A stretch of 64,000 nucleotides of DNA, taken from NCBI GenBank assembly GCA_030737835.1, contig CM060856.1:17029116-17093115 (forward strand), given 5' to 3'. Below the pieces are notes generated by a model that was given only the letters and a program-made list of their open reading frames with translations, did not search any database and was not told the origin of the DNA. The stretch comes from Acorus gramineus. Its lineage: Eukaryota > Streptophyta > Magnoliopsida > Acorales > Acoraceae. A program made the translations under genes and the position numbers. Positions 39,331 to 64,000 of this stretch are shown here, piece after piece (positions within the stretch are counted from its first letter, which is position 1; each line of letters starts with the position of its first letter).

Positions 39331-39882
39331 TAGGGATGGCAATTGAGAGGATTGTGATGGCAATCTCAAATCCAAATCCGCTCATAAAATCATGTCTCAA
39401 ACCCGTGATGGATTTAGCTTTTTCATCTCAAACCTGTCTTAACAAGAATGTAAAAAACCTGAATCCACCCCGACCTGTCTCATTTAGGTCTGTGTGTCAA
39501 GTCGGGTTGGGCCAAGGTAAAATATTAAAATATTTTTTTATCTAATATTTAATCTAAGTTGAAATTTCAAATAAAACTAAATATTTCTTATAATAAATCC
39601 TACAAAATAAGAAATATAAACTTTCAATCTCTATAACAAATGACAAATATAATCTTTCAAATTCTTTTTTGAAATATCAAAAGTCAACCCATGTATGTTT
39701 ATATGATTTCAAATTTTAATTAGCATTTGAGTTTATTCATTCTTATTTTTTTGATACTTTTTTTGGAATACCAAATGACAAATATAAATTATATAATTAT
39801 TATAACAAATATTTAATCTTAATATTAATTGCAACTAGGGCGGATCGGGTATCCTATTGAGACAATCCCACTGCCATCCCTA
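39331..39882. mobile_element. hAT-like MITE with 7/8 target duplication
   Basis: Left end TAGGGATGGCAATTGAGAGG and right end, read inverted, TAGGGATGGCAGTGGGATTG. Flanks TCAACCGC (39323-39330) and TCAACAGC (39883-39890) differ at one of 8 bases. The interior has GGTCGGGTTGG-like words and AT-rich DNA, no coding frame. It has landed close to the plastid-derived fragment that follows. Confidence 0.8.
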
Positions 39883-39979
39883 TCAACAGCCAAGCAAGAT
39901 GTTATGTTAGTAGCACATACACATGCTTTCCACCGTTCCAATGGACGACGAGAACTAGAGCTCAAGTGAAATTTGTTTC

Positions 39980-40126
39980 CTTCGGATAATTCGTCCAACC
40001 CAAGGATAGCTATAATGTCCTGAAGTTCTTTGCAACGTTGTAAAGTTTGCTTAACTCTTTGTACAATTTCATAATGTTCCTCGCCAATGATCCTAGGTTG
40101 GAGCATAGTTGACGTTGAATCTAAAG
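39980..40126 (-). pseudogene. atpB: plastid atpB fragment in the nucleus (NUPT)
   Basis: The minus strand encodes [19 protein letters not shown], then [19 protein letters not shown] and LDELSEG, matching chloroplast ATP synthase beta near its C-terminal third; the mitochondrial beta subunit differs here (it has TSRMLSPHILGEEHY). Only about 147 bp are present, with a few differences from the plastid form (for example TAQ to IVQ, RYKE to RCKE). It has neither a start nor the catalytic regions, so it is a dead transfer fragment. The adjoining 39890-39979 stays open in the same frame but I do not recognise it. Confidence 0.85.
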
Positions 40127-40462
40127 ATCATCATTGTCTAATGAGAAGAAAAAAAAAAACTTGATAGTTCCTTGTTAAAAACATAGGCTTTTATGTATAG
40201 ATCTTAAATCATAATTCATAAAATCAAAATGATGAAAAAGAACTAGAATACATACATTGCTCTATGGAATTTTATCAAGCTAGGAACTTAACTCAAGAAA
40301 TAAGGATGTAAGAGCTTGATTGATATGGTTTTTTCATTGCACAGTGCACACCGAACTTATTTTTTTAAAATGGATTTTGAACTTCTCTCTCTTCACTCTT
40401 CCACTCGTAGAGATTTGTTGGGTATCTCTACAAACCATCTTACCTAGATGATGGAACGGCTA

Positions 40463-40860
40463 CAGATGGTGGAAACAAATTTCTAGGGTTTTAGATCTGC
40501 TCTTATTTGGGAAAAACTTGGTCGAAGGAGAGGGAGAGTGACTGAAAAGTTGGGTTATATTCCCTTCGTAATTGTGGGTAAGTGACAGGGGCTGAGTGAT
40601 CTTTTTGCAAGGGGTTTTAAAAGGGCGGAAGGCGTGTGCGTAAAATAAGTGTGCGGTCAGGTATTTAAAATTCAGAGTAAAAAACGTCTGAAAGCAAAAA
40701 TTTAAGTACAATCAAACACACTTTTCAATAATAAGCGTTGATTAACAGCTTTAAATAAAAGAAGCTCTGATTTTTAATCGAACTAAACGGTGGCCCCTAA
40801 GACTTGCGAATAAGCTAAGGCACAAGAATTGAAAATTCCAATAAGTACATCATACAATAA
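40463..40860 (-). repeat. promoter-like duplicated block, copy A
   Basis: Nearly identical to 61126-61525. On the minus strand it carries a TATA-like AATATAA (forward 40555-40561; TATATAA in copy B), a CT-rich stretch, and AAAACCCTAG (forward 40483-40492), a telo-box as found in leaders of ribosomal-protein and other growth genes. The other side contains AAACGGTGGCCCC, a MITE-like end. No matching gene body follows here. To its right lies the 3' end of an RNase H-like gene fragment. Confidence 0.7.
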
Positions 40861-41225
40861 CACTCCAAGAAGAAATAGCATCTGTCAAAAAAAAAATTAA
40901 ATTGCACTCCGAATGAGCTAATTCATGCAGCAGAACCAGGGTAGTAAGACACTGTAATTTGAAGAAATCTAATTCTCAAACTAGTACACTGTAATTTGAA
41001 GAAATCTAATTCTCAAACTAGCAGTTCCTTTACATTCAGATATGATATTGGAGCCAATTTTTCGTAACACAGCCGGTTGCACACCGCTGATATAGAATCC
41101 TGAAGCTCCTTAAGCTTGATGTAGCTCTCCGCCTTACTCTTGGCTTCGATCTTTGCCTCCACCTCATGCCTGGTTTCGATGATCTTTACCTCCGCTTTAC
41201 GCCTGGCTTTGGTCTCTGCCTCTGT
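40861..41225 (-). pseudogene. C-terminal fragment of the RNase H-like gene family
   Basis: Homologous to 46363-46680. The minus strand reads a charged, coiled-coil-like tail (KARRKAEVKIIETRHEVEAK, then IEAKSKAESYIKLKELQDSI) to NVKELLV and a stop at 41013-41015; everything upstream is missing. Here the tail keeps an open frame, unlike in the main copy. A 37-bp tandem duplication (40949-41022) overlaps the stop region. Confidence 0.6.
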
Positions 41226-42253: not shown

Positions 42254-44879
42254 TTAAGGCCTAGTTTGGCAAGGGGATAAGGGGTTAGGATAAAGAAAAA
42301 ATTGAATTAAATCATTTGTTATCCCATATGGTATAAAAAAAAAAAAGGGATAAAGTATGGACAATTGTCCACATTTTGATATAAAAAATAAAGATAGTTT
42401 GTTCTGGATAAAAGATGGAACAGACTTTGTCCCAATTTTTTATCCCTATTTTGTAAAATTGAGATAACATTGATGACTACTTTTCCCCAAAAAAAAAAAA
42501 AAGAAAAAAAAAGAATGTGTTCCACTAAATAACATTAATACCCCCATTAATGGGAAGATATGCATGGCTAGTGACTTGTGAGTGTGCATGAGAGGCATGA
42601 AAGAGTGTGAGTGATATATGAGTGTGTGTGATGTATGTATTTATATGGAATGCTCAAGCCAAAGAAGAATTGAAGCTTACAAAGGCACATAAGAGAAATG
42701 CAAGTGATGTAAATTATCCTAAATGCATGCATGCTGGCTTGATTTAAAAAAAAAAAAACATTTTTTATTGCATGTTAGTGGTTTTGAAAACTTGTTGGTG
42801 ACCAAAATTTGGGTCAAGAGTATTGGAAAGGGTCCATCGTCCCCATATTTAGGCCACCAACGGCCATACAAAGCTCGCATTCGCAAATTGGTAAATCATT
42901 GCTTTTGCTGGAGGGGCGCTCACCAGTCAATAAGCAAAAGCAAATTAGGTTTTTGAAAACTTTTTTTTCTTTTTTGTTAAGTTAGTGAGTTAGAGTTAGT
43001 AAGAGATATACCTACACAATTCAAAATATACAAGGTGATCATGCAACAGGCATAAATAGCTTGCAGCTTTATATGAACATGTCATGGAATGATATGAGTG
43101 TGTGCTCAAGTGACATGTATCATGGTGGGATGATGAGCAAGCAGCTTAACATATGAGAGCATGTTGTTTGGAAGAAATATTGGTCTAAGCATGAAAGACT
43201 TCTCTCCAGGCTGATTCATTCCCGTTTGTTTGAAAATTTCAAGTCTATTCAGACAAGCGTAAGATTTCCGTCCATTGGATTAGGCAGCCTTTAAAATGAC
43301 TCACGTGGTGTGTGATGGTGTTGGCTGAGGAGATAGTTCACTGTAGGATGGATCAACCGCTTCGCCAATTTTCTAGTTTAATTAGCTCTTCCAAGGGAGA
43401 AGTAGAATGAATGGGGATGAGGGTAATATCTTCTTAGAACCATCAAAAAATTGCCTCAGTCCTACCACATATCGTAAGTCACTCAGTCCCTCTAGCTTTC
43501 TTCTTTACTGCTTCTCTTTTTGGTGAAGGACATAGACCCGCATTGGACATCTATTTTATCCTCTCTTTTTTTGTGAAATGGCTAACCTTGCCTTATTTAT
43601 CGGGGGGCGCTTCTGTTTTTTACCCACCCTCTTCTTTGTTTTTTTTTTAAAGCATCAATAGTGCTAGAGCTAGCTTCTTTGAGACATGTACCAGGACTAA
43701 GGCATTTTCTATGGGTTGTAGTCAATATGAATGAAAATTTTAAATAAAAAAAAGAAGATATAATTGCCCCAGTCCAATGGTGTGGGCAGCCTTTCTTTCC
43801 TGAGGTGGACTAAATCATAAGCCAATCATGTGTGTGGATAGTGAGATGTTGATGTGAGCCAGGTAAAAGACAACAAATTCTTTGGACATGGTCTATTAAA
43901 AAGTCCAAGCAAATATGAAATAATCAAACAAGCTGAGTAAATGTGACAGTCATGCTCAAACTAATTATTCATTGAAGATTAAAAATTGCCCCAGTCCAGT
44001 ATTAGACTAGGGTGCTCTCATGCTAGAAGATAAATTTCTCAATCTAAGTGTTGGATTGAGTGTCTTTGAAAAAAAAAAATTTGCTTATGAGATATTTTAG
44101 GCACATGAGATGTTTTTTTTTAGGGATTTTTTACCTTTTTTTTTTTTTTTGAGGTTTTGACATATTTGATTTTTTTAGGATTTTTCATTTAAAGAAAGCA
44201 GTAAATGGACAACATGCTATATACAATAAAATAGGGGAGATGGAAGATACTATACATTGTTGGAGGGTGTCCTCCAGAAAATGATGGTGGCGGATGAGTC
44301 CTTCATGGAGGCTCAAATTAAAGCAGCTTCAAAGGAACAACGCTTGAAACGTTTGATGTAACATTGACGGTGCATCGATTCTTCTCCACTTTGAAACGTG
44401 TATGGTGCCTTTTGTATCATTGATCCTCAGCGTCTATCAAAAGCTGTAGGAAACGCGAGTGGCCCCAGATCTGCTATAGATTCTCAGTAGAAAGAAAATA
44501 TTTCCTCACAGAGGAGTCAGTCAACAAAGATGCAGTTATGGAAAAGCAAATCATAGGGGGAATCACTTATCAAACTAATGCAAAGAAAGATGGGGTAACA
44601 TGATACTGAGACCCTAATGATGGTTGGAGTAATGACTCATCAATTAATGAGGGGCCTACGGACCAGATTTGATTTGGATATCAAGGGAATGACTGATTTG
44701 GATATAGCGGGGGAGTGGGGAGGAAAAGGCTCCTTCGATAGATGGGATGACAAGTTGAGCAGATATGGCAATTGGGATTGCTCGACTGCTCCCTCAAATT
44801 GTGCATTCCTAAAGATTAGAGGCTTTGATTCGAGAACATGCGCAATTGGTTCAATCGGATCCAAGTCAACCTCAAAAGG
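42254..44879. other. non-coding interval between the CT-rich direct repeats
   Basis: 42254-42530 looks MITE-like ('tagtttggcaaggggataagg'). The phrase TTGCCCCAGTCCA recurs (near 43776 and 43986, with a variant near 43453). No retroelement protein was recognised in any frame. Confidence 0.35.
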
Positions 44880-45409
44880 CCCTGTTTTTTGTATTATAGA
44901 TCCTGCATCAACTTCTTCTTCTTCCCTCTCTCTGTTCTCCCTGGTTACTCTCTCTTCCCTTCACTCATGCTCAACTTCTCTCTCTCACACACACACTCAC
45001 TCACTCTCTCTCTTTGTGCTTAACTCCCAGACTCACTCAGCACTTTAAACAAACAAAACCTTTTTCTTTTTTTTTTCTCCAAACAACACAGGCTCCTTCT
45101 TGAACAAATAGTCCACCTCTCCTCTTGAATAATCAAATACTCACTCCCCTCACTTGCAAAACAGCCGGAGTCCTCAAAACAACCAAAAGTTCTTCATTTT
45201 ATAGCCCTTCAAAACTAGCCGAATGACCCCAGTGTACTCCTTCCCTCCCTCACTCTCTTCCTTCCTCCCTAAGAAAACCATCCGAAATGACCAACTGTCC
45301 CTGTCACTTCTCCTTTTCTATTTTGACTTGTAGTCATCTCAATCTCCCTCTCACCAGTACTTGTGCCCCCCATTTACCTTACTTAGTCCCTAAGGAAACC
45401 AGCTAAACC
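44880..45409 (+). repeat. CT-rich direct repeat, copy 2
   Basis: See copy 1 at 41761-42253. This copy has extra CT and CA dinucleotide runs (about 44976-45011). Confidence 0.75.
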
Positions 45410-45436
45410 AAGAAAAACAAACCAACCATGCCCTAT

Positions 45437-46240
45437 CTCCTCCTCGAACTTCCCCATAGGTGATCATAGATGATCTTTCATGATAAAAGTTCTCTACGTA
45501 AGCTAGATGATTTGACATTTGAGTTCAAAAACGACAATATTCATGTGTAACATATACTTTGAAGTTTGAAGTGGTACAATTTGGACAAACTGAATTCTAA
45601 ACTGTACTAACCTCACAAATGAACTAAATTCTATTGTGCTATGAATAGGCTGTTCTACGTATGGTTTTTTTTTTTTTTTGAAAACAACAATTAATCTAGA
45701 TCAAACTTAGCACTAACTATGACAACTTTTTCATTCTGAAGTAGCTGGATATCATGATTTAGTTAAAACTGCAGGACTATACATCTGAACAAACATTCTT
45801 GTGTGATGGTTTCATGGCATAGGTACAGCTGCCATGGCTTGTCTGGCCATCTAAAAGTGAAGTGGTGGCAGAGCCTCTTGGCCTCGTGCTTATATTCTCC
45901 TCCTGGAACTTCCACATAGGTGATCATAGGTGATCTTTCATGATAAAAGTTCTCTACATAAGCTAGATGATTTGACATTTGAGTTCAAAAATGACAATAT
46001 TCATATGTAACATATACTTTGAAGTGGTACAATTCGGACAAACTGAATTCTAAACTGTACTAACCTCACAAATGAACCGATTTCTATTGTGCTATGAGTA
46101 GGCTGTTCTATGTATGATTTTTTTTTTTTTGAAAACAACAATTAATCTAGATCAAACTTAGCACTAACTATGACAACTTTTTCATTCTGAAGTAGCTGGA
46201 TATCATGATTTAGTTAAACTGCAAGACTATACATCTGAAC
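45437..46240 (+). repeat. tandem duplication, unit about 350 bp, separated by about 105 bp
   Basis: Copy 1 is about 45437-45790 and copy 2 about 45895-46240; they are highly similar ('tttcatgataaaagttctct', 'gaattctaaactgtactaac', 'gtagctggatatcatgattt'). Between them 45791-45894 is unique and, on the minus strand, stays open (KRLCHHFTFRWPDKPWQLYL), but I do not recognise it. The period is about 458 bp, so the event may have been a tandem duplication with one copy of the spacer lost. Confidence 0.75.
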
Positions 46241-46819
46241 AATTATATACATTTTAAAAACAATTTAAGACTTGCTGATTTCTGAATAAGCTAAGGCACA
46301 AGAATTGAAAAATCCAATTCATACTATGAGTAGCAGAAGGTTGAAGTACATCAAACAATAACACTCCAAGAAGAAATAGCATCTGTCAAAAAACAATTTA
46401 AAATTGCACTCCGAATGAGCTAATTCATGCAGAAGAACTAAGGTACTAAGATACTGGAATTTGAAGAAATCTAATTCAAACTAGAAGTTCCTTTGCATTC
46501 AGATATGACAATGGAGCTAATTTTTCGTAACACAGCCGGTTGTACAATGCTGTAATAGAACTCTGAAGCTCCTTAAGGTTGACGTAGCCCTTTGTCTTAC
46601 GCCTGGCTTCGATCTTTGCCTCCAACTTACGCCTTGCTTTGGCCTCCGCTTTACACCTGACTTTGATCTCTGCCTCTCTGCCTCTTCATCATTCTGAAGC
46701 TCAACTTCAGCCTCTGCCTCTTCACCATTCTGAAGCCCAACTTCAGCCTCTGCCTCTTCATCATTCTTTCCAAGTAAATTCTGAGCCTCAACTGTAGCCT
46801 CTATATCTTCATCAAATTT

Positions 46820-47287
46820 TCTAAGTAGCTCTTTAATTATTTTGCTCACTGCCTTCAGATTTTCAATATCATTGATTTCGGGAGTAAAGTTGACATTTGC
46901 CTTCATCACAGCTACCGCATAATGAACATAAACATCCGTTGCGACATTAGCCGTCCTAGGGACATATGTCAACAAAACATCTTCGCCATTGATGTTTTGT
47001 TTATAATGCTTCTTGTATTTCTTTTCAATTTCGTCATTTGGGTACCTCACATCATTTAACACTTGGGCTACTTGCTGACAATCTACTTCAAGCCATATTT
47101 TTTTAACATGATTGTTGTTTGTCCAAGATAATCCCCATAATGCACCAAAATATTCACCATCAATGACTCTAACCTTTTTTCCTTGGTTACTCCATCCAAA
47201 CCCATGCAGAACATGGTAAAAGGCATCCCTAATGATATACCCAACATACACTGGATTGGTTTTATTTGCATCCGAGTTTGCCTTTAA
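46820..47287 (-). repeat. left arm of 468-bp inverted repeat
   Basis: Reverse complement of 47490-47957 over exactly 468 bp; about five differences seen by eye, so about 99% identical. Both arms keep an open RNase H-like frame. The central spacer 47288-47489 is 202 bp. Confidence 0.92.
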
Positions 47288-47489
47288 GACTAATATCATC
47301 CGGGAGTGTCTTTTTAAACACAAATGTCCACTTTTTTGGTGTCGTCTATGCAACCTAATTACAAATGAAAAAGGATGTAACTCCATGGATCACATTGTAC
47401 ATGAACTAGCATCCAACAAAAAAAAATCAAATGTGCAACCGAAGTATAATGCAATCGAGTTTTGTTCCTTCTTTCCACCTTTCGGTTGG

Positions 47490-47957
47490 TTAAAGGCAAA
47501 CTCGGATGCAAATAAAACCAATCTAGTGTATGTTAGGTATATCATTAGGGATGCCTTTTACCATGTTCTGCATGGGTTTGGATGGAGTAACCAAGGAAAA
47601 AAGGTTAGAGTCATTGATGGTGAATATTTTGGTGCATTAGGGGGATTATCTTGGGCAAACAACAATCATGTTAAAAAAATATGGCTTGAAGTAGATTGTC
47701 AGCAAGTAGCCCAAGTGTTAAATGATGTGAGATACCCAAATGACGAAATTGAAAAGAAATACAAGAAGCATTATAAACAAAACATCAATGGCGAAGATGT
47801 TTTGTTGACATATGTCCCTAGGACGGCTAATGTCGCAACGGATGTTTATGTTCATTATGCGGTAGCTGTGATGAAGGCAAATGTCAACTTTACTCCCGAA
47901 ATCAATGATATTGAAAATCTGAAGGCAGTGAGCAAAATAATTAAAGAGCTACTTAGA
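47490..47957 (+). repeat. right arm of 468-bp inverted repeat
   Basis: See left arm. On the plus strand this arm is continuous with the spacer, in the order shown by the diverged third copy at 48840-49905; the left arm lacks that upstream part. Confidence 0.92.
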
Positions 47958-48839
47958 TGCATCTATCAATTGGGGAAATGACCCTGTCATATTCAACTCT
48001 ACTTCATTTTCACTGCACTTGTTATCTTGCACAACAGCACCTGATGCCTTCCATATTTCAACTAACTTCTTCTCCAAAGTTTTTGTAAACAAATTCTTCT
48101 TAATCCGAAGGTTTCTTAACACATTCTCTTGATTATACATTACAATGTCACCTTGCACCGCATGCAAACTCATATGGTTACTGTATGTTTTCATACAACC
48201 ACATGTACTGCATGTAACAAATGAAATAAATCCTATATAAGCATAAAAGTAATTGTAAAATATTAAGATAATTTTAATAGCAAATGAAAAGAGAGTTTAA
48301 CACCTGAAAAAAGATGAACATAACATTTTTTTCTCACGGGGGTAAAATGATATGACCTGTTAATCAAAAAAACAATTGTTCATTCAGGTCTCATTAAATC
48401 AGCACACAATCATACAAACAAATTTGCTTGAAAGCCCTAAATGGCACAAAATTATCAGAAGCTGAAGAGATGACCTTGGGGGGCTCGGGGGGTTCGGAGG
48501 AGAGGAGGGAGTGGGCCTCAGAACCCGCGACGCGGGTCTGGTTGAGGGCGGTGGGGACTGGTGGTTCGTCGTCGGAGGGCGGAGAGGCGTTCTTCATGCG
48601 GTGTTGGCGTTCTTCCTGAGAAGCGGAGCATTCGTCGTCCATGGGAGGAGGAAGGGATTTGGAGGTCATAATGGGAGGATTGGTTACTCGGATGGGCTGT
48701 TTATTTGGGGGTGTTGATAAAAAACAATGAGGTTGCAAAGTTTTTAAGGGAAAAATCTATGTAGCTCTACGAAAACTTATGAATATTAAAAAAAATCCTT
48801 CTAAAATTGATAAATCCCTTTAAAATGAGGTTGCTGTTT

Positions 48840-49905
48840 ATTTGTTCCTTCATTTTTTTTAAGTGTTAACTTAATTAACCTTTTTAAAATTTACTATTAA
48901 ATTTATTTCTTTATTACTTAATTACTTTTATGCTTATAATAGATTTGTTTAGTTTGTTACATGCAGTTAATGTGGTTGTATAGAGACAAATAGTAGTAAT
49001 ATGAGTTTGCATACAGTGTAAGGTGGTCTTATAATGTATGATCAGGAGAATGTATTACGAAATGGAAAGATTAAAATTAGGGAAAATTTATTTACAAAAT
49101 CTATTAAGAAGAAATTAGTTAAAATATTGAAAACATCAAGAGTTGTTGTGCAAATAAACAAGTGCACTGAATATGAAGTGGAATTAAATTTGATAGGGTC
49201 ATTTCCCTAGTTGATCAATGCGTCTAATATCATTCACGAGTTTCTTTTTCAACAGAACTACCCACTTTTCTGATGTCGCATTTGTAACATAATCACAAAT
49301 GTAAAAAGATGTAACTCAATGGATCACACTTTACATCAACTAGCATCTAACCAGCAAAAATCAAATACGCAGCTCAAGTATGATGCAATCTAGTTTTGTT
49401 CTTTCTTCGCACCTTTTGGTTAGTTAAAGTCAAACTCTCATGCAAATTAAACTAATCCGGTTTATGTTGGTTATATAATTAGGGATGCCTTTTACCACGC
49501 TGTGCATGAGAATGGATGAAATAAACATAAAACGTGTATTAGAGTCACTGACGGTGAATATTACGGTGCATTAGAGGGATTGTTTTGGACAAAAAAATCA
49601 TATTCATAAGATATGGCTTAAAGTAAACTGCTAACAAGTAAATGAAGTTTTAAATAATGTGAGGTATCCAATTAACGAATATGAAAAGATATATAAGAGC
49701 CTTTATAAACAAAATATTAATGGCGAAAATGTTTTGTTGACATATGTCACGAGGACGGCTAATGTTACAACAAATGTTTATGTTTACTATGAAATAGTTA
49801 TAAAGGAGGCAAATGTTAACTTTTCTGCTGAAATTAATGATGTTGAGAATTTGAAGGCATAGACTAAAATCATTAAGAGGCTACTTTGAAAAATTGATGA
49901 AGAAA
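48840..49905 (+). pseudogene. diverged third copy of the RNase H-like gene
   Basis: Head to head with the copy at 46476-48669. Similarity starts in the intron before exon 2 ('attacttttatgcttata', 'gttacatgcagt'), and continues through the basic part, the Cys/His part and the RNase H-like domain (open piece YKQNINGENVLLTYVTRTAN at about 49700-49765) to the point where the acidic tail would start. Several stops and frame changes show it is dead. It keeps the uninverted order and so reveals the ancestral arrangement. Confidence 0.75.
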
Positions 49906-50723
49906 GAAAAACATTAATGTTATTTGTTTTCTTGGCTTTTATCCATCTCAAACAGATATGTGGAGAAAGATAAGTTATTGGGAATACCCCGTCCCCCGAT
50001 CTCCTAGAATGGATTAACTTTTCAGTCTCATGAAGAATGGGGGTCATCTTATTATTAAAATACTTGTGAACTGATTTGAAAATTTAAACAAAGAATCAAA
50101 ACAATCCGACTTTCTAACATGTATTAAATAGCAAAAATAATACATTACTATATAAATGCAATGGCAACGGTTCATTGATGTAGGAATCAGAGAATCAGAA
50201 CATTTAAAAAGTAAAAACACGAATTTGTTATACACGCTGCATATGGTTCTGGTTCAGGTCACAATCAAATGAATCTAGTTTCCGGTGTGCAAACAAGTAT
50301 TCAAATTCAAAGAAACCTAATGTTTGAAGGCAAGGGAACGGATGATTGATGAATGATCATTATAACACTAGTGGCAACCGGTAGAACACGAGGAATCACA
50401 ATGCGACTAGATCAAGTGACTGACTAATCACGATAACATTTTCAACACCTCATCAAGGCATTGCATTTAATTTTGCCAACTTTCTACTTCACTTGTGTCA
50501 CTGTTATCTTACTTTTAATTAGTTGGTTATGTCAATGAACATATAAAACCAATGTTAAATTTTGATATAAGATGTTAATATAGAAATTTTTGCAACCCAT
50601 GGCACAACATTCACATCGATAAGTTCTAAAGATCAAATTCAAGCTCAAACAAGGGTCCTTATATTAGCAGTACCTTTCTATCATGCAAACTCAGGCGGGA
50701 ATCAATGATGCTTCACAGTACCT
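49906..50723. other. intergenic sequence, nothing recognised
   Basis: No coding similarity or element ends found. Confidence 0.4.
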
Positions 50724-51125
50724 TTATGTCATGCCCAGGTATTTTCCTCCCAATTCTAATGTAACAAGAGTCAGATGCTTTGCTGCTGCAGTCATAACAA
50801 TACAACCCACTCGTGCAGTCCCTGTATAGTACAGTTTTCATGATCGAGTGAATGTCTGATTGATAGCAAAAATGCGTAGTGAAACAAAACAGAAAGAAAT
50901 CACCATCTTAGGGACATACCTGTGAAGAAGATTTTATCCCATTTATATTCTAATATTGCTCAGCAACTGATGATCCACCTTTGTAGATCTTCACAACTTT
51001 ACTATCCATGTACATGGAGATGCAGTTTGCCAAGAAATGTGATGATGCTGGAGATTGATCAGAGGGTCTCAATACAACTACATTTCCAGCTGATATTGCT
51101 CCTATTAGACTTTTTAAAGCCAGTC
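50724..51125 (-). pseudogene. aldehyde dehydrogenase family 3 (ALDH3) fragment, two exons
   Basis: Exon a (51125-50920) encodes LIGAISAGNVVVLRPSDQSP, ASSHFLANCISMYMDSKVVK and, after a frame change near 50957, LEYKWDKIFFTG; exon b (about 50831-50724) encodes [20 protein letters not shown] and ELGGK. These are successive parts of the NAD-binding half of plant ALDH3, with the intron kept between them, so it is a DNA-level copy, not a retrocopy. The catalytic cysteine region and both termini are absent. It is a dead fragment. Confidence 0.85.
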
Positions 51126-51726
51126 CTGTAAAAAAACCATCAGTCAATAATGTACCATCAATTGAACAGAAGAAACACCGACGTCGTCCTCACACAATTG
51201 CATCGTTAAGAAGAAAAGTCCATGAAAACAAATCATGCATCAAAATTGGCATTGGCATGGTATCTTTTAGATTTTATCAAATACTCTGCATTAATTGTCC
51301 CACTATAAATTATAATATGTACCCTTAACCCATCTGACGAAAAGATTGAACTGATTGAAGACACAAATCATGCATAGAACACCTCTTTTTGTGGCTTGTG
51401 AGTGGATGGAGCAGAAATCTCTTCTGCTGCTATCCTATTCTCCACTCCAAACCACCCCCCACCCCTCGGCATCTATGTTTCTCCTTTGATTTTTGTAACC
51501 GGTCGGGCATGGGATTAAAAAAAAAAAAAGACGCAAAGGGGGTCTTCTTCTTCACACTTACCCGGCCTGTTCTTCTTCTTCTTCAGCCCACCGCAACCGC
51601 AACGTCTCCTTCGATCTTCTCCTCCGACCGCGACTTCTCCTCCGAGGCTCCGACCGAGACCGCAGCGACCACGTCTTCATCTTCTTCTTCAGCTCGTCTT
51701 CTTCCTCTGTGTCGTCTTCAAGTCTG

Positions 51727-51760
<34 letters not shown>

Positions 51761-52860
51761 TCTCTCTTTTCACTGCTCTTTCTTTGATCTCTCGATTTCT
51801 TTGTCTGTCTCTCTCAAACTTGTAAAGACACCATTTTTATTATTTGTGTCAGTGGTGGGACCCCTCTCTTTTTTTTTAAAGGGCACATTTATTCCCACCA
51901 GTCTATTTGCTTATTCTCCCCACCACCCAGGAACGAGAGAAACCCAAAAGTGTCTTGTCTCTTTGTAATGAGAGATTTACATTAGGACCAGGGACTTTGT
52001 GTGTGTGTGTGTGTTGTTTTAATTCTATTTTAGCTATTCGTAGCTTTGTTAGATTTATATGCAGCTGGTATGAAATATATCAAAGGTATATCTTTTATAT
52101 TCAAACAATTTGGTTAAAATAGAACATTTTAAAAGTTTTTAATTGATTCTTTATATGTATATATTTGACATTTATTTTGATATGTTTCAAAATCATATTT
52201 TTTATAAATAAAAAAACAAAATCGCATATATCCCTACATATACTCTATGCGGTATCTTGACCGCATAAAAATCGCATACCGCATTTTTAAACACTGGTTG
52301 TTTCCAGTGATAGCTCTAGGAATTTTCATAGATAGGATCATTAAAAAAATAAATTTCACAAAATTTTCAAAAAAATCTCCTCTTATCATATGGTTTTGAA
52401 TAGATCTCATGACTTTGATATGGTTGTATAAATAAGTCTCCTGAATGACCCCACCACTTAAAAGTTGGTTTGTTTTTCAAGACACTCAGTCCATTTTACT
52501 GTCTCATATCCTCTGATAACGTAGTATATATTGCGCTATCATAATATATGGAGTTCTATAATAGTATATGCCGCAAAAAATTCAATGCAAAAAAATAATT
52601 AGTGTAATTCAGTATATACTTCAGTTTATATAATTGTATGTACTTCAATTGTAGAATATATGATTTAAAAAAAAATCAGTGAGGATTGCAATTAAGGCTG
52701 ACTATATTATTTTTCTTTTTTCAAAAAAAATTTTTTGATAGGGTTTGGTTGTATAAATGGCTTCGTATTGAATAAAATGGCCTCCTAAATATGGGGTAAA
52801 TTGACCCCACTCAACAAAGCTGACGTGGCCCTTGGTTGTCTCTATACACTATTTCTTTCT
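51126..52860. other. intergenic DNA with a GC-richer island and (CT)n tract
   Basis: 51540-51725 is unusually GC-rich for the area and stays open for 132 codons on the plus strand, but reads as Ser/Thr/Pro low-complexity; (CT)n occupies 51728-51758. The rest is AT-rich. Confidence 0.4.
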
Positions 52861-55800
52861 TTGATAATTGATATAATTTAGAAAAGGAAAAAATTCATAT
52901 AACCCCCTCAAAACTCACTAATATTCATATAATCTCTTAACTTTTTTAAAAAGTCTATATAAACCCCTATAAAATACAAACACATATGAAAATCTAAATA
53001 GCAACCTAAATTATTCTTTCGTTAATAGATAAATGATATTATGTTAGATTAAACTCTAACCAAAAACACTGCATACCAACAACTCTTTATAATATGTTAA
53101 AAATTTAGAAAACCTCCAACACAACATGTTAAAAATCCGTATCGTATCTGCTGATGAAAAACAAATACAGCTAGATATGAAAAATCTTACACTCACACGT
53201 ACGTGATGTACCATGCCAATTGAGTGAGTTCTCACCTTCTTTCCAACCATCCAAAAACCATGACTCATTATATACACATACAGACACAGTACTGTTGTTG
53301 TTGGGACGGGTCAGGTTGGTTGAGGCGCGCATTGAATTCACTGAGGAGGGGGAACAGTACTTGGTCTGCATTAAAAGTGAATTAAGAGTAATGAAGGAGA
53401 GGGTGTACAGCATCCTCTCCATAAAATCGGGATACTGAAAGAGAGGATTTTCTTTTGGGTTAACTGTGGTTTCGTTTGAATCCGCGTGAGCGGATTATAT
53501 GGTGAAAACATAGTAAGCATCTTCAAAAACCTCAATGTTTTCTTATCGTGTGAAAAAAAAAATCACTTTATGATATGTAAAGAATTTTTTTTTTTTTGTC
53601 ACTCTAAAAATCTCATCATTCTTATCCCCGACATTTATTTTAAATGACTCATTTATTTAAATTTATATCTATAAATTACAAGATCTAAAAATACATTTTA
53701 TAAAAAAGATTATCAATAAAAAAATCAAAGAATTACGCATAACAATAAAACTCAAAAGACATATATGAAACACAAAAAGATAAAAAATTTAAACCAATTC
53801 CAACGTAATCAACCTCAACAACCAACCCCCCCCCCCCCCCCCCTTTCAAAAAAAAAAAAAAAAAAGAGTTTTTGTGCCAACACATTCAAAATATTTCTAT
53901 AAAAATTCAAAACCCACAAAAAAAAAAAAACACCCTTAAATCCTATATATAAGATATTGAGCCCACAAAAACCTTTCAAAAAATTAAAAAGGTTTAATTC
54001 AAACCCATTCAAGACCCCTGAGTGAGTGAGTGAGAGAGAGAGAGAGACGTGTGATTTCAAAAGAGAGAGAAGACGGCATTCACATACCAAACCCAGTGAG
54101 TGAGAGAGAGAGAGAGAGAGAGAGTGGAGAGACGGATGGAGGAGATCAAGATTTTTGAAAAGTTGAATTCAAATTTTTTAATTTTTTAATTTTTTTCAAG
54201 GTTATAGGGGAAAGATGAAAATGGGATCCATTCAGGGAGAAAGTTTCAAAATGGGGAGAGAGAGAGACTTGGCTGTAAAAAAAAAAAAAAAAGGGGGGGG
54301 GGGGAGGGGTATTTATTGAAAATTGAAAGAAGCAAACTAATCTTTTTACATTTTTAGTTTTTTCTAAAGAAAAAAATATTGTACGAGCTTGTACCATCTC
54401 TAATCCTTATTCAAATTTATATTTAAATTTTATTTAAAATTTAAGTAAAAATTTGATTTGATATTATGTGTCTCCAACCATTACTTTATGCTTTACTAAA
54501 TTATTTAAAAATTTCACATCTTCTTCTAATTATTTCCTATAAACATTTTCAAAGTCCTTTCCTCAAATATTTTTACTAAATTTTTCTTTCCTTCAAAATA
54601 TTTAAATTTAAAAATTATTATCATCCAATTTCTTTTTAAAAAGGTAAAAGTAATATTTTTTTTATTAGAATAAAAATAAGAAATTAAAAAATAAAGATGA
54701 AGACTTAAGAAAGAAAACCACTTTTTTTTTTCAAGAGATAGTAAAAATTTTTGGGGGTGGTAAAACATTTAATATATTAAACTAAATGTGGAGTTGAAGA
54801 GAAAAAAATGTCACATTGGAAGAAAAATGATAAAGGAAAAAAAAGAGATGTTAAAAATTTGAGTAAAAATTTGAGTCTCCCTTGATTTTGGTAAAGATTT
54901 GAGTAAAATTTTGATTTGGTATGGGTATGGGTAAATGGTTGGAGAGGGTTTTTTGTGATTTTTACTCAACTTTAAGTTTGAGTAAAAGTTTAAGTATAGG
55001 ATTGGAAATACTCTAAGGAATCTCTTAGATCTTTTTTTTAAGTTTTCAGCTCTCATGTTAGGGAATGAGCCTCATAAGGAAGTTTTTAAAGTTATTTCCA
55101 ATGTTTTTAAAAAAATTACAGTTTTTTTAAAATAGGCAGACTATAACTTAACGAGTGTTACATATGTTTGAATGTTGCCATCAAAATGACAAGAGCAAAG
55201 GAGGATAGAGGAAAAATAAACTGAAAATTACAAAAAACAAACTCGTTCCAAGTGAGGAAAAGAACTCACAATTTTTTTTTTTTTTTGAAAAAAATTTCAC
55301 TTGACATTGTTTTTTTTTTAAATCGTACACTCTTCAATTGAATTAGATGTTATATGAAATAAAGTATATACTGAAATATAAAACTATATTTTTTAAATTA
55401 AAAAAATGATAAAAAAATTTGTGTTGTATACTATGATAGAACTACATAAAAGATATAATACACATGTATAAGACTGTAAAACTAGTTATAAAACAGACTG
55501 AGTATATCAGCCCTCGGTGTCCTTTTTATGTTTTTTATTCATTGGAAGTGTCAGCTTTTCAAACTCTTTGAAAACACTATTTTAAGCCTTACGTATGAGT
55601 AGGCCTTTCAACATGTCACAGGTTGACTCAGACTTGACATGAACCCGACTTGATAAAAGGCGTAAATATCAAACTCAAAGGACCCAACAATCAAAACAAG
55701 TCGGGTCTGGGTCCACCCCGACCCAATCCTATGGACCAGGTTGACCCGACCCAAATACTATGTGATTTTTTTATATTTATGATCTAACCCAACACCCATG

Positions 55801-56077
55801 ATCCAACTCAACATTTATAACTAAATACTAAATAATCATTTAAAATTTTAAGAATTTGAAATATATAATAATGAATTTTTTGTTATTTGATTAAACAAGA
55901 ATAAGTTGTGAAATAAAATGTGGATAATGATCTGTAACTTTTTAAATCAATCATTTACTTTCGTACCTTTTTTTATTTTCTTATATATTTTAATCCATCA
56001 CAAATTCAGTTTCATCATGACCATTTATCATATATACGCTACATTATAATCGCCCTCCATCCCCTTTTGATCTTTGA
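52861..56077. other. AT-rich intergenic DNA with simple repeats and half elements
   Basis: 52880-53030 resembles one arm of the fold-back at 38447-39272 ('ttcatataaccccctcaaaa', 'aacacatatgaaaatctaaa'). There are C runs at 53826-53842, GA runs near 54030 and 54105, an A/G run near 54280-54305, and a repeat block with GGTCGGG/CCCGACC words at 55595-55760. No gene seen. Confidence 0.4.
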
Positions 56078-56826
56078 TTGAGAGGTATGACATGGTATCT
56101 CACAAGTGATATGGGTAAATTAATTAAATGTAAACAAATGAGTGAGAGGTATCACATGACTTCTGACAGCTGACATGGGCAAATTAAATGTGAAAAAGTG
56201 AGTGAGAGGTATCACATGACTTCTGACAGCTGACATGGGCAAATTAAATGTGAAAAAGTGAGTGAGAGGTATCACATGACTTCTGACAGCTGACATGGGC
56301 AAATTAAATGTAAAAAAGTGAGTGAGAGGTATGACATGACTTCTGACAACAAATATGCGTAAAGTAAATGTAAAAAAAGTGAGTGAGAAGTATGACATGA
56401 CTTCTGACAACTCACATAGACAAATCAAATGTAAAAAAGTGAATAAAAGATATGATATGATTTTTGACAACTCAGATTGACAAAATAAATATAAAAAAGT
56501 GAGTGAAAGGTATGACATAACTTTTGATAACTCACATGGGCAAAGTAAATGTAAAAAAGTGAATGAGAAGTATGACATGACTTCTGACACCCCACATGGA
56601 CAAATTAAATATAAAAAAGTGTATGAAAGGTATGACATGACTTCTGACAATTCACATGGGCAAATTAAATGTAAAAAAGTGAGTGAGAGGTATGACATGA
56701 CTTCTGACAACTCACATGGACAAATTAAATGTAAGTGGAAAGCCTTACATGACTTAGGGTAAATGTAAAAAAGTGAGTGGAAAGCCTAACATGGCTTTTG
56801 ACAGGAGCAAATTAAATGTAAAAAAG
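56078..56826. repeat. 60-bp minisatellite, about 12 units
   Basis: The unit reads roughly GTGAGTGAGAGGTATGACAT, then GACTTCTGACAACTCACATG and GGCAAATTAAATGTAAAAAA. Units at 56161-56220 and 56221-56280 are identical and the third differs slightly; units to the right diverge more. Because the period is a multiple of 3, long open frames appear on both strands by default. Confidence 0.92.
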
Positions 56827-58007
56827 GTGATGTGATCCAATGGAATAAGCAATCCGAGGGAGACCATGGAATTGTTGTACACTTTTATCCCTTGTTATAC
56901 TAGCATAGGTATACCACATTATTCTCCCTAAACAAACATCAATTTTCTCTTATCCATCCTTATGCTTGTACCCTTCCCCTATTCCACCATCCAAACGGGC
57001 GGGTATAATTGAACATGAACAATTGTGGATAAAATTGATGAATAACACATGGATTAAAATTTATCAAAAAAAAAAATGATTTGACAGGTGGACCGTATAT
57101 TCATAATGATAGGTGATTAGATATGTAAGTCCCTTATTTTCACAAAATAATTATATTCACTTATTCTTTAGTGCCTGTTTGGATAGAGACATAAGCAATT
57201 CTGGAGTTTATACTTATTCCAAGAATAGATAACTTTATTAATGAAATATTTTATTTTCTGTTTAATTATGTTTTCGGTTATTTTCATTGGGAAACGTAAT
57301 AATGAAAATTGAAGTGTTTGGTTTAGGAAAAATAAGATAGGGATAAAATGTGGTTGATGGTTTAAAATTTTTATAATCTTTTGACTTCACGCAAAAGCAC
57401 AATAATCCAAACATATTTCAAATGTTTAATCATAAAACATTAAAAAATCAAAATAGTGAAAACCTATTTATAATACACTAGATTCTATTTTAAAAAAATA
57501 AATAAAATCATTGTAGATCTTTAAAAAATTCATTAATTTTTTTTTATCTGATTTAAATCTGTTAATGAATCGACCTGACTCAATCAGAGATCCAATGTGG
57601 ATCGGATCTAAAATATCAGACAATCAAATGTAATCTAGGGATTTTTTTTTGCTTTTTTTTTTAAAAAGAGGGTTTGATTTGAATTATATTTCATTTAAAA
57701 AGATATATACATTATTATAGATGCTAAAAAGATATGAGGTATACAAGACTGCACTTGAGTTTGTAAAAAAGAGTGAGTATAATAGCGCCAAGGACATTTT
57801 TTTTACAGCTTGATTGAAGTTTGAGCTAGCATTTTTTTTTTTGAAAGAGCGCTCATAAGAACGAGGTATATAATTCATTAGAATATTATTTACATATTTT
57901 ATTAATGTATTCATACAATTATTTGAAGTATGTATTTCATTTTTTTATAAAATATGCATACTTTACTAGATGACGTAAAAAATTATAAAAAAATAAATAA
58001 ATAAGGG
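56827..58007. other. AT-rich spacer with a partial MITE
   Basis: 57165-57370 resembles the left half of the MITE at 58008-58452 ('gtttggata', 'acttattcc', 'gggaaacgtaataatgaaaa'). Nothing else recognised. Confidence 0.4.
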
Positions 58008-61125: not shown

Positions 61126-61525
61126 AGCAGATGATGGAAACAAATTTCTAGGGTTTTAGATCTGCTCTTATTTGGGAAAAACTTGGTCGAAGGAGAGGGA
61201 GAGTGACTGAAAAGTTGGGTTATATACCCTTCGTAATTGTGGGTAAGTGACAGGGGCTGAGTGATCTTTTTGCAAGGGGTTTTAAAAGGGCGGAAGGCGT
61301 GTGCGTAAAATAAGTGTGCGGTCAGGTATTTAAAATTCAGAGTAAAAAACGTCTGAAAGCAAAAATTTAAGTACAATCAAACACACTTTTCAATAATAAG
61401 CGTTGATTAACAGCTTTAAATAAAAGAAGCTCTGATTTTTAATCGAACTAAACGGTGGCCCCTAAGACTTGCGAATAAGCTAAGGCACAAGAATTGAAAA
61501 TTCCAATAAGTACATCATACAATAA
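61126..61525 (-). repeat. promoter-like duplicated block, copy B
   Basis: Nearly identical to 40463-40860 (few differences). On the minus strand it has an intact TATATAA (forward 61220-61226) and, about 63 bases on, the telo-box AAAACCCTAG (forward 61148-61157). Downstream a GC-richer stretch to about 61040 looks like leader or early coding sequence, but no protein was recognised. Confidence 0.7.
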
Positions 61526-61760
61526 GGTGCCGTTTGGTTCAGCGGAAAGCTGATTTTAAGTCCTGCTTTATAAGTGCAGATTGTATAAGTTCTGATAAAT
61601 TTTAATCAGTTCAGAAGAAAAACTGTTTGGTTCAGCGAAAATTATAAGCACTTATTGCAAATAAGTGTGTTTGGTTCAGTACTAAAGAGTAGAGCTTATG
61701 ACAAGGGTGTTTTGGTCCATTTAATAAGTGCTGAATGTAATTTGATGTTTGGTTAAAAAC
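61526..61760. mobile_element. MITE-like block with GTGCCGTTTGGTTCAG
   Basis: Directly abuts copy B. Contains GTTTGGTTCAG three times and 'ataagcactta', and resembles the widespread plant MITEs that start near GGGNCCGTTTGGTT. Ends not resolved. Confidence 0.35.
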
Positions 61761-62709
61761 TTGATTATTTGCTTATTTTTTCTATTTATTAAAAAAAGAT
61801 ACTTTGATAAATGTCTATTTAATAAATTATTAGATACTATATTTTGATTACTTGTTAGATTACTTGTTAGAATCTGATACAAGCTTATATAGATTTTAAA
61901 AAAACCTCTCCAGATATATGTGCTTTTTATAATGTGGTAAATATGCAATCTATATTTATCATATTTCAAAAAATAAAACATGAACTAGAACCTGCAGAAC
62001 TAATGACAACTTCAACCGTCACCAGTCTAATGCAAATGAAATGGAAGGCTACAAGTTCTAGTATGTAATGATCCTGTCAGTCTTTCACTACAGAGTCACG
62101 ACAATATATTCGGCATGGGCATTAATACACTGTGTCATTCCTGCAGTTTTGAGTGTCTGAAATCTACAAAAATAAGATGCACACATTGAATTCATTCAGA
62201 GCACTTAAAAAAAAAAATTCAATGCATGTTGGCATTGCAAAAGTGATTGCAGGAACCGAGTGTCCCTCACAGTTTTCCATTCAACATTTCTCCCATTGCC
62301 AGTCAGAACACAATGTCAATGCCACATTATTATAAAACAAGACAGATGTCCTGGGCGTATATACAACTCTGAACAACACCACCTGCTAAGTAAACAACAT
62401 GAGAAATTCCTGAAAAGAAACATTATTCGACAAAAACACAAAATATACATCACAAACAACATGTTTCAGTTTCACAAACTGGACAATAGACAACCCACAG
62501 TTGGATGCCAAAGGAATTGAAATCCAAAGTTTCATAAGTTGGAAGTAACATAATTTTTTTTTAACTCCAAATTGGGTAAAAAAATAAAGAAAGACAAAAG
62601 GAAAGAATAGGTCACTCAGATATGCTTACACACTCCAAACCAAAAGAAGAATCAAGCGTTCCATTCGTAAACCATCACAAAGTATGCGAACTGCAAAATT
62701 TATATAATA
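61761..62709. other. 3' flank of the kinase gene and AT-rich spacer
   Basis: Right part is the likely 3' untranslated region of the kinase gene. No other gene seen. Confidence 0.4.
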
Positions 62710-63260
62710 CTAAACCTCTGGTGCCAGGGCAGGGGCCACAGATTTTTGCATGAGAAGCGGTTGGAGGGCCTTGACCACAATGCTCATGTTCGGCCTGAAC
62801 TCGGACTCATATTGAACGCAGAGTGCTGCTACTGCAGCCAACTATAAAAAATAATTCAAATAACAAAATTAGCTAATCAAGTCACACACAGTTTTCAAAT
62901 CAAGAAATACATGTTGTGCCCACAAGAGAGAAGAAGAGAATAGACAACCTTGGCGACTCCTTCTGGAGGATATTCTCCCTTTAGCTTAGGATCAATGCAT
63001 TGTTTCACCTTATCCTCACTCAATCTCGGAGTTGCCTAGAAAAAAATATCATTTAAAAGAATATGTGCTAGATTAGAATTGGTAGATTCCACGTTAAACA
63101 GTAGTAGTTATCATGCAAAAAAATTACCCAAGTAACGAGACTCTGCTGCCCCCGTGGCATTGTATGATCCACTGGTTTCCTGCCAGTCAGAAGCTCCAGA
63201 AGAACAACACCAAAGCTATACACGTCGCTCTTTTGGGTCAGCTGTCCAGTCATGGCATAC
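62710..63260 (-). CDS. PTI1-like serine/threonine (tyrosine) protein kinase, last three exons
   Basis: Cytoplasmic receptor-like kinase of the PTI1 family, which acts downstream of immune and oxidative signals. Exons 63260-63128, 63035-62949 and 62841-62710 join in phase to [60 protein letters not shown] and [16 protein letters not shown], ending ALAPEV and a stop. This covers kinase subdomains IX-XI with the DVYSFG motif and the conserved FRP arginine. The preceding exons, with the ATP loop and the HRD and DFG motifs, should lie to the right but are not found before the window ends. No break seen in what is present. Confidence 0.92.
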
Positions 63261-64000
63261 CTTCATATAAAAAAATTAAATATCAGGAGATGTGAAATCT
63301 TCGATTATAACTTTCTCTACCATTACCATATATTTGAAGGAAGATATGTAACTATGATGCATTCAGGGCCTACACTAATAATTCACAATTCAGGTTGTGC
63401 AGTTAAAAAGGCGTAAAAGATCGGTTATCACTCTCCTAAATTTATTTTACATGAAGCATTTTTTTTTATCACACAAGCATCATAGAAGCACATAACCACA
63501 TGTCACAAAAAAAGAAACATGGGCTTAAATTTTTACCTTTCATAATAGCAGTCAGTATCATTGTAGTTAAAAATGGCATATATGGTTTGTGTGACAGGAA
63601 ATACTGTGTGTGCAACTGCAATGGCATATGCAGTCTGTGCACCATGCAGTTTGTGCGTGCCAACATATCCCATACTTCCAAAGCATCTAATACATCACAC
63701 TGTATAGACTATTCAAACAAATATGAAATTATTTTGTATATAGAGATTAGCATTTGATCAATTGACCAATGCTGATTCATAACTGGATAATGAGGCTCAT
63801 TAACCAAGAACATAACGCAAAGTTCAATGATTCTGGAAGTGCATCATAATGCAACCACACCTTCTAAAAGAGAATTTTCTTTACAAAAAGAGGCCCCTTT
63901 TGTTGACAATTACAAGTAATGACAAGACATTCTGGTCCTCTCCTCAACCAAAAATCCACTAATCAAACAAATGTGGTAAACTTTGATTACTTGTAACATT
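63261..64000 (-). other. probable intron of the PTI1-like kinase gene
   Basis: The exon at 63260 starts after an acceptor (ATGAAG on the minus strand) in the middle of a codon, so an upstream exon must exist. No kinase sequence is seen from here to the right edge, so this is read as intron. Confidence 0.5.

Follow-up and report, generated by a model that had tools for sequence, protein, structure and literature searches.

A young inverted repeat in Acorus gramineus, most likely the mark of a small inversion that broke an RNase H-like gene

The inverted repeat at positions 46820-47957 of an Acorus gramineus contig segment raises the question of whether it is a young hairpin siRNA or proto-MIRNA locus, as the initial annotation proposed, or a gene broken by rearrangement. 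We favour the latter, and consider it likely that a micro-inversion was followed by a tandem duplication and then by rearrangement of one daughter copy, and that a transcript, if made, would act on its own locus. In the window, the whole stretch of 64,000 nucleotides that was analysed, the arms occupy 46820-47287 and 47490-47957, each 468 nt long, and are separated by a spacer of 202 nt. They agree at 463 of 468 sites, in perfect runs of 225, 76, 14, 104, 10 and 34 nt, so that the arm length, the identity of about 99% and the spacer length given earlier were all correct. An ungapped search with 14-base seeds found four inverted repeats of at least 80 bp in the window, among which this one alone exceeds 83% identity. 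A chance origin of a 468-nt inverted repeat is excluded. The claim that the duplication is young also holds, since divergence at only 5 of 468 sites, about 1%, marks it as recent on the sequence evidence.

The arms were said to derive from a piece of a gene, and they do correspond to the RNase H-like part (Pfam RVT_3) of a host gene on the minus strand; the arm block, X, matches RVT_3 with 36 bits against a curated cut-off of 21.6. The model that we infer for this gene starts with a predicted first coding exon at 48416-48669 on the minus strand (exon C, ATG at 48669) and continues with exon A at 47953-48207 on the same strand. The splice site between them was predicted by eye, the pair consisting of a GTATG donor from 48415 and an AG ending at 48208, picked since it keeps the frame open. 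The C-terminal tail, from 46819 to about 46476 on the minus strand, is charged and carries a 36-bp repeat, and its reading frame shifts inside copy A, the structure present in the window. On the minus strand the predicted first exons precede the arms and the tail frame follows them, so that the repeat would lie inside a gene, in agreement with its earlier placement. Arm 1 (46820-47287, minus strand) appears to be the RNase H-like coding block X in its native position, continuous with the tail. The spacer, S (47288-47489), is inverted relative to the gene and coding on the plus strand together with arm 2 (47490-47957, plus strand; Pfam RVT_3, E 7.8e-9), the inverted copy of X, with which it is colinear in an open stretch of 223 codons. 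S and arm 2 still form an open plus-strand frame of 253 aa, from which a short protein product may be made.

The native arrangement of these parts is exon C, exon A, S (202 nt, with a CxxC motif), X (468 nt, RNase H-like) and the charged tail, while the gene on the left in the window reads tail, X, inverted S, inverted X and exon A. A diverged copy had been described at 48840-49905 and is real: 46806-48285 aligns with 48889-49903 at 77-79% identity. This older copy, R, lies head-to-head with the gene on the plus strand (48889-49903), keeps exon A, S and X in their native, uninverted order, and has the same continuity past X as arm 1. It is interrupted by stops, seven in its two S/X stretches and three in its exon A stretch. 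Substitutions between S plus X and R fall at codon positions 1, 2 and 3 in the numbers 48, 32 and 61, which hints mildly at coding constraint in the past.

A protein search of the genome identified three further relatives, one at C5 and two at C9, which are 29-32% identical. One C9 paralogue aligns across S and X in a single open frame (residues 15-209 of 223, 29% identity, E 1e-21), so that in the native protein X follows S without interruption. The uninverted ancestral order thus recurs in this paralogue for S and X only; no alignment was found between exon A and its upstream reading frame, so the position of exon A before S is taken from R alone. A stretch of the paralogue that resembled exon A when read by eye was dropped when the comparison gave no alignment. 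Nowhere else did the genome protein search find exons C and A in full. Exon C has a partial match at C3 (39 aa, 59% identity; 104 bp at the DNA level), where the resemblance, judged by eye, is limited to exon C, and this 104-bp match was set aside as a target.

The break in the gene can be followed at its two junctions, which, like the anatomy above, are direct observations. At the first, junction J (47283-47297), the inner arm end TTTAA is followed by a 2-nt filler, GA, and then by the start of S, CTAATATC. As far as R and the second copy of the structure described below show, the filler fits neither native neighbour. The second junction (47953-47957) is a 5-bp microhomology, TTAGA: the arm has it at its outer end, and R has it where exon A meets S. 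Past exon A, which ends in LIDAS, the frame of the gene model reads one further codon, K, and then stops, 170 residues from the ATG; the open frame has been lost. An inverted segment, an inverted duplication of its end, and junctions with filler and microhomology are the pattern expected of an inversion by staggered breaks or template switching. A micro-inversion of 670 bp, comprising arm X and spacer S and retaining a second X, would thus have broken the RVT_3 host gene. It could have arisen from staggered breaks that were filled in before end joining, as described for inversions in flies (PMC7584159), or from a there-and-back template switch. Both routes would leave the observed pattern and are indistinguishable here. 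The sequence thus makes it most likely that the host gene was broken by a small inversion and became a pseudogene. Six sites vary among the arms, and five of them alter the protein, as expected without constraint.

The whole structure occurs a second time 24.6 kb downstream, beyond the window, which the initial annotation did not report. The copy in the window belongs to unit A of a tandem duplication (40463-61032, the left limit being as far as it was sought; initial offset 20,665 bp), and unit B, its tandem duplicate, starts at 61128 and continues past the window end. Copy B reads tail, X, native S, junction J, inverted X and inverted tail, and then joins the equivalent of position 49872 through a 5-bp ATTAA microhomology at its outer junction. 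Its arms measure 1,147 bp and are 99.3% identical. Its spacer of 186 nt has a 16-nt deletion and lies in the orientation opposite to that of copy A, and exons C and A as well as R are missing. This recurrence is again observed directly, and as copies A and B have the same GA junction, the inverted repeat most simply arose once.

Divergence between the flanks of the two units is uneven, from 0 to 9% per 300 bp, and we therefore give no date for the events. In a comparison of 49872-57639 with unit B, steps of 300 bp differ by 0.3-2.0% as far as about 51.4 kb. Divergence then rises to 2.7-9.0% until about 56.5 kb and falls again after that point, first to 1.3-3.7% and then to 0-2.0%. This unevenness suggests patchy conversion or mixed ancestry. 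Near its start unit B holds a 3.5-kb insert that is absent from unit A (from 61526 to 64000, the last base of the window, and about 990 bases farther), with the ends GGTGCCGTTTGGTTCA and TGAACCAAACACCCCC and a 3-bp TAA duplication; it resembles a PIF/Harbinger-type element. Both units contain a tandem array of about 10 copies of a 60-bp unit (56122-56734 in unit A), and both contain an older copy of the C-terminal tail region only (40808-41223 in unit A), which is 74% identical to 46284-46677. Two other minus-strand features were seen in the window. One is an exon at 50950-51131, perhaps a fragment, which ends in a stop after SVAEQY and resembles aldehyde dehydrogenase; the other is a reading frame at 39825-40127 with a stretch that resembles part of ATP synthase beta, after which it turns into unrelated sequence.

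The order of events is suggested by site patterns observed among the four arms (A1 and A2 in copy A, B1 and B2 in copy B) and their tails. At two of the six variable arm sites, 47045 and 47137, A1 groups with B1 and A2 with B2. Beside the spacer, site 47253 groups A1 with B2 and A2 with B1 and so tracks the orientation of the spacer; a flip of the spacer through exchange between arms beyond 47137 would produce this pattern. Site 46956 is private to B2, and at 47122 and 47242 A1 alone differs, with the base of R. At 47242 B2 lacks the base of A1, although a clean exchange located between 47137 and 47242 should have given it that base; this implies either a clean exchange between 47242 and 47253 or an added conversion or recurrent change. 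In the tail, B1 and B2 have five substitutions and one length difference in common relative to A1, four substitutions are private to B2, and no site pairs A1 with B2, a pattern which indicates that the arm extension in B came after the tandem duplication. Few as these sites are, they would most simply be explained if the inverted repeat formed first, the tandem duplication followed, and B underwent its extension and deletion last. The tandem event, about 20 kb in extent, would have carried the inverted repeat along, and in the daughter copy B the spacer would have flipped, probably through exchange between the arms, the arm would have extended outwards and the 5' exons would have been deleted.

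The same patterns bear on the reverse history, in which the repeat first formed in copy B as a simple foldback, with tail and arm inverted and the 5' exons deleted, and a piece was later copied to unit A. Such a history requires just two new junctions, and arm 1 and the spacer of copy B do retain their native continuity. However, the pairing of arms at 47045 and 47137 favours an inverted repeat older than the tandem duplication, the tails of B1 and B2 have their common changes relative to A1, and the TTAGA junction of unit A demands an extra event. We regard an origin in copy B as unlikely.

What RNA the structure could give was examined by folding. Over its 1,138 nt, the structure as minus-strand RNA has an MFE of -883.5 kcal/mol, with 465 pairs in the register of the arms. 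It had been claimed that read-through from the exon at 48669 would produce a hairpin, and the placement of the hairpin stands; read-through is not needed, because the arms and spacer sit between exon A and the tail and a native transcript would contain the hairpin without it. We infer a working native promoter, and if it works, the transcript would hold a near-perfect 468-bp hairpin. DCL2, DCL3 and DCL4 would be expected to cut this hairpin into siRNAs of 21-24 nt, which would mainly hit their own locus and copy B, and self-silencing would be the most likely end state. In Arabidopsis, long near-perfect stems are reported to give siRNAs dependent on DCL2, DCL3 and DCL4 (PMC4687873), and hairpin transgenes have been reported as methylated and self-silenced (PMC9263138). 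A long near-perfect repeat within one predicted transcription unit is the structure of an endogenous inverted-repeat siRNA locus, and what the sequence most likely represents is a pseudogene that, if transcribed, would yield endoIR-type siRNAs acting on itself; cis effects only are expected, and a function in trans is not.

A function in trans was nevertheless implied by the initial annotation, which named the diverged copy and other family members as targets. In this reading the locus is a working hairpin siRNA or proto-MIRNA locus, with a native promoter, DCL cutting and regulation of other transcripts. The location of the arms behind the predicted first exons of the gene and the near-perfect fold are as it would have them, and of the 448 21-mers in arm 1, 406 have a perfect counterpart in copy B and the other 42 differ from it at one position. 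In R, which is real though not near-identical, none of the 448 recurs perfectly, while 20 match with one mismatch, 43 with two and 64 with three, and R is burdened with the stops given above. Elsewhere the evidence goes against trans targets. In the 398.6-Mb genome the arm DNA has five matches (all five candidates scored), namely the two arms here, the two in copy B, and R, so that the DNA matches stay within the cluster itself, and the other protein relatives are the 29-32% identical ones at C5 and C9. When 112 of the 448 21-mers were sampled against these three relatives, the best match had three mismatches (one, at C5), four mismatches were seen once at C5 and once at one C9 locus, and all others had five or more. 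One shuffled arm, used as control, reached four mismatches at best, and the similarity of the C5 and C9 loci to the arm is thus close to that of a shuffled arm. In the two upstream tail-copy regions no 21-mer matched with fewer than five mismatches.

Searching the genome for full-length complementary family members returned only copy B, which has the same structure, and the degenerate R, and no near-identical trans target outside the cluster was found by DNA or protein search with the best candidates scored. Apart from the C3 match already mentioned, the extra matches of a further search (best 40 of 366 candidates) trace to one short repeat, at about 792-875 of the query and about 48741-48824 of the window, and were likewise set aside. 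Outside both copies of the inverted repeat, a search with the tail matched its two older copies and, in two places of 102 bp, an adjoining repeat. It gave one further match of 95 bp, at C10:16508169, and one of 35 bp, and none of all these lies in the arms.

Annotated MIRNA foldbacks are short and imperfect, far shorter than the present one of 1,138 nt with arms identical at 463 of 468 sites. An Rfam scan of 44000-52000 gave no matches at gathering scores, although none would be expected for a young locus. Neither was a surviving parent-family target with a near-complementary site found, copy B and degenerate R being the only candidates among the matches scored. A trans-acting proto-MIRNA is unsupported by these sequences because no near-identical member was found besides the tandem copy and R; the assembly itself may lack an intact gene. 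We consider a working trans-acting locus improbable.

One may entertain a bolder version of the history. The inversion might have destroyed the last intact member of its subfamily and made its promoter that of a hairpin siRNA gene, so that the tandem copies, with arms of 468 against 1,147 bp, flipped spacers, and promoter present against absent, would form a natural experiment in the birth of hairpin genes, with siRNAs from A keeping B methylated. This is a speculative proposal to which we give little weight. In appearance the locus is an ordinary though instructive pseudogene.

Two further explanations concern the nature of the repeat itself. The arms might be the terminal repeats of a transposable element or of a Pack-MULE that has picked up part of a gene, and RVT_3 domains are indeed common in this genome, with at least 150 matches (best 150 of 1794 candidates), some in long retroelement-like frames. 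However, no target-site duplication was found at the outer arm ends, the sequences on either side belong to the gene itself, being its tail and exon A, and the arm is not a genomic repeat with further copies, which makes such an element very improbable. That the repeat is a chimeric foldback created in assembly, foldbacks being a known long-read artefact, is the least probable explanation of all, since the arms differ at five sites, the junctions bear filler and microhomology, and the structure is present twice, its copies differing in arm length, in the direction of the spacer and by 16 nt deleted from the spacer, so that the second, structurally different copy largely answers this worry.

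With the inverted, self-acting pseudogene as the preferred reading, the locus belongs with the known inverted-duplication loci. Among the closest are the Arabidopsis endoIR-siRNA loci IR71 and IR2039, which likewise consist of long near-perfect repeats and are reported to give dsRNA from a single transcript without RDR (PMC4687873). Their siRNAs are reported to depend on DCL2, DCL3 and DCL4 (PMC4687873), while the Acorus gramineus locus is known from DNA alone. In rice, long inverted repeats that vary between genotypes have been described at sRNA QTL hotspots as probable sRNA precursors, some of them with short spacers as here; they differ in being linked to sRNA expression, and one has arms of about 7.4 kb (PMC7649420). 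Mu killer of maize resembles the present locus as a partial inverted gene duplication for which a hairpin is proposed, but it silences MuDR in trans, and its hairpin is proposed to come from read-through of a flanking gene (PMC3440606), whereas at the present locus no active target was found and read-through is unnecessary. The pseudogene route in the inverted-duplication model of MIRNA origin also has inverted pseudogene pieces of one family adjoining each other, but in that model, as presented, the parent gene is the target (PMC3237417), and no intact parent was found here. An inverted duplication of a gene piece may thus leave no intact target, and structure alone is insufficient for calling such loci proto-MIRNAs. 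In its making, the locus resembles the inversions studied in flies and yeast, where short inversions with a duplicated end and spacers flipped between copies are reported (PMC7584159; PMC8604942). The present case differs in lying inside a plant gene, and since an uninverted neighbour, an inverted gene and a rearranged tandem copy stand within 30 kb, the path from a gene to a pseudogene capable of forming a hairpin can be read junction by junction.
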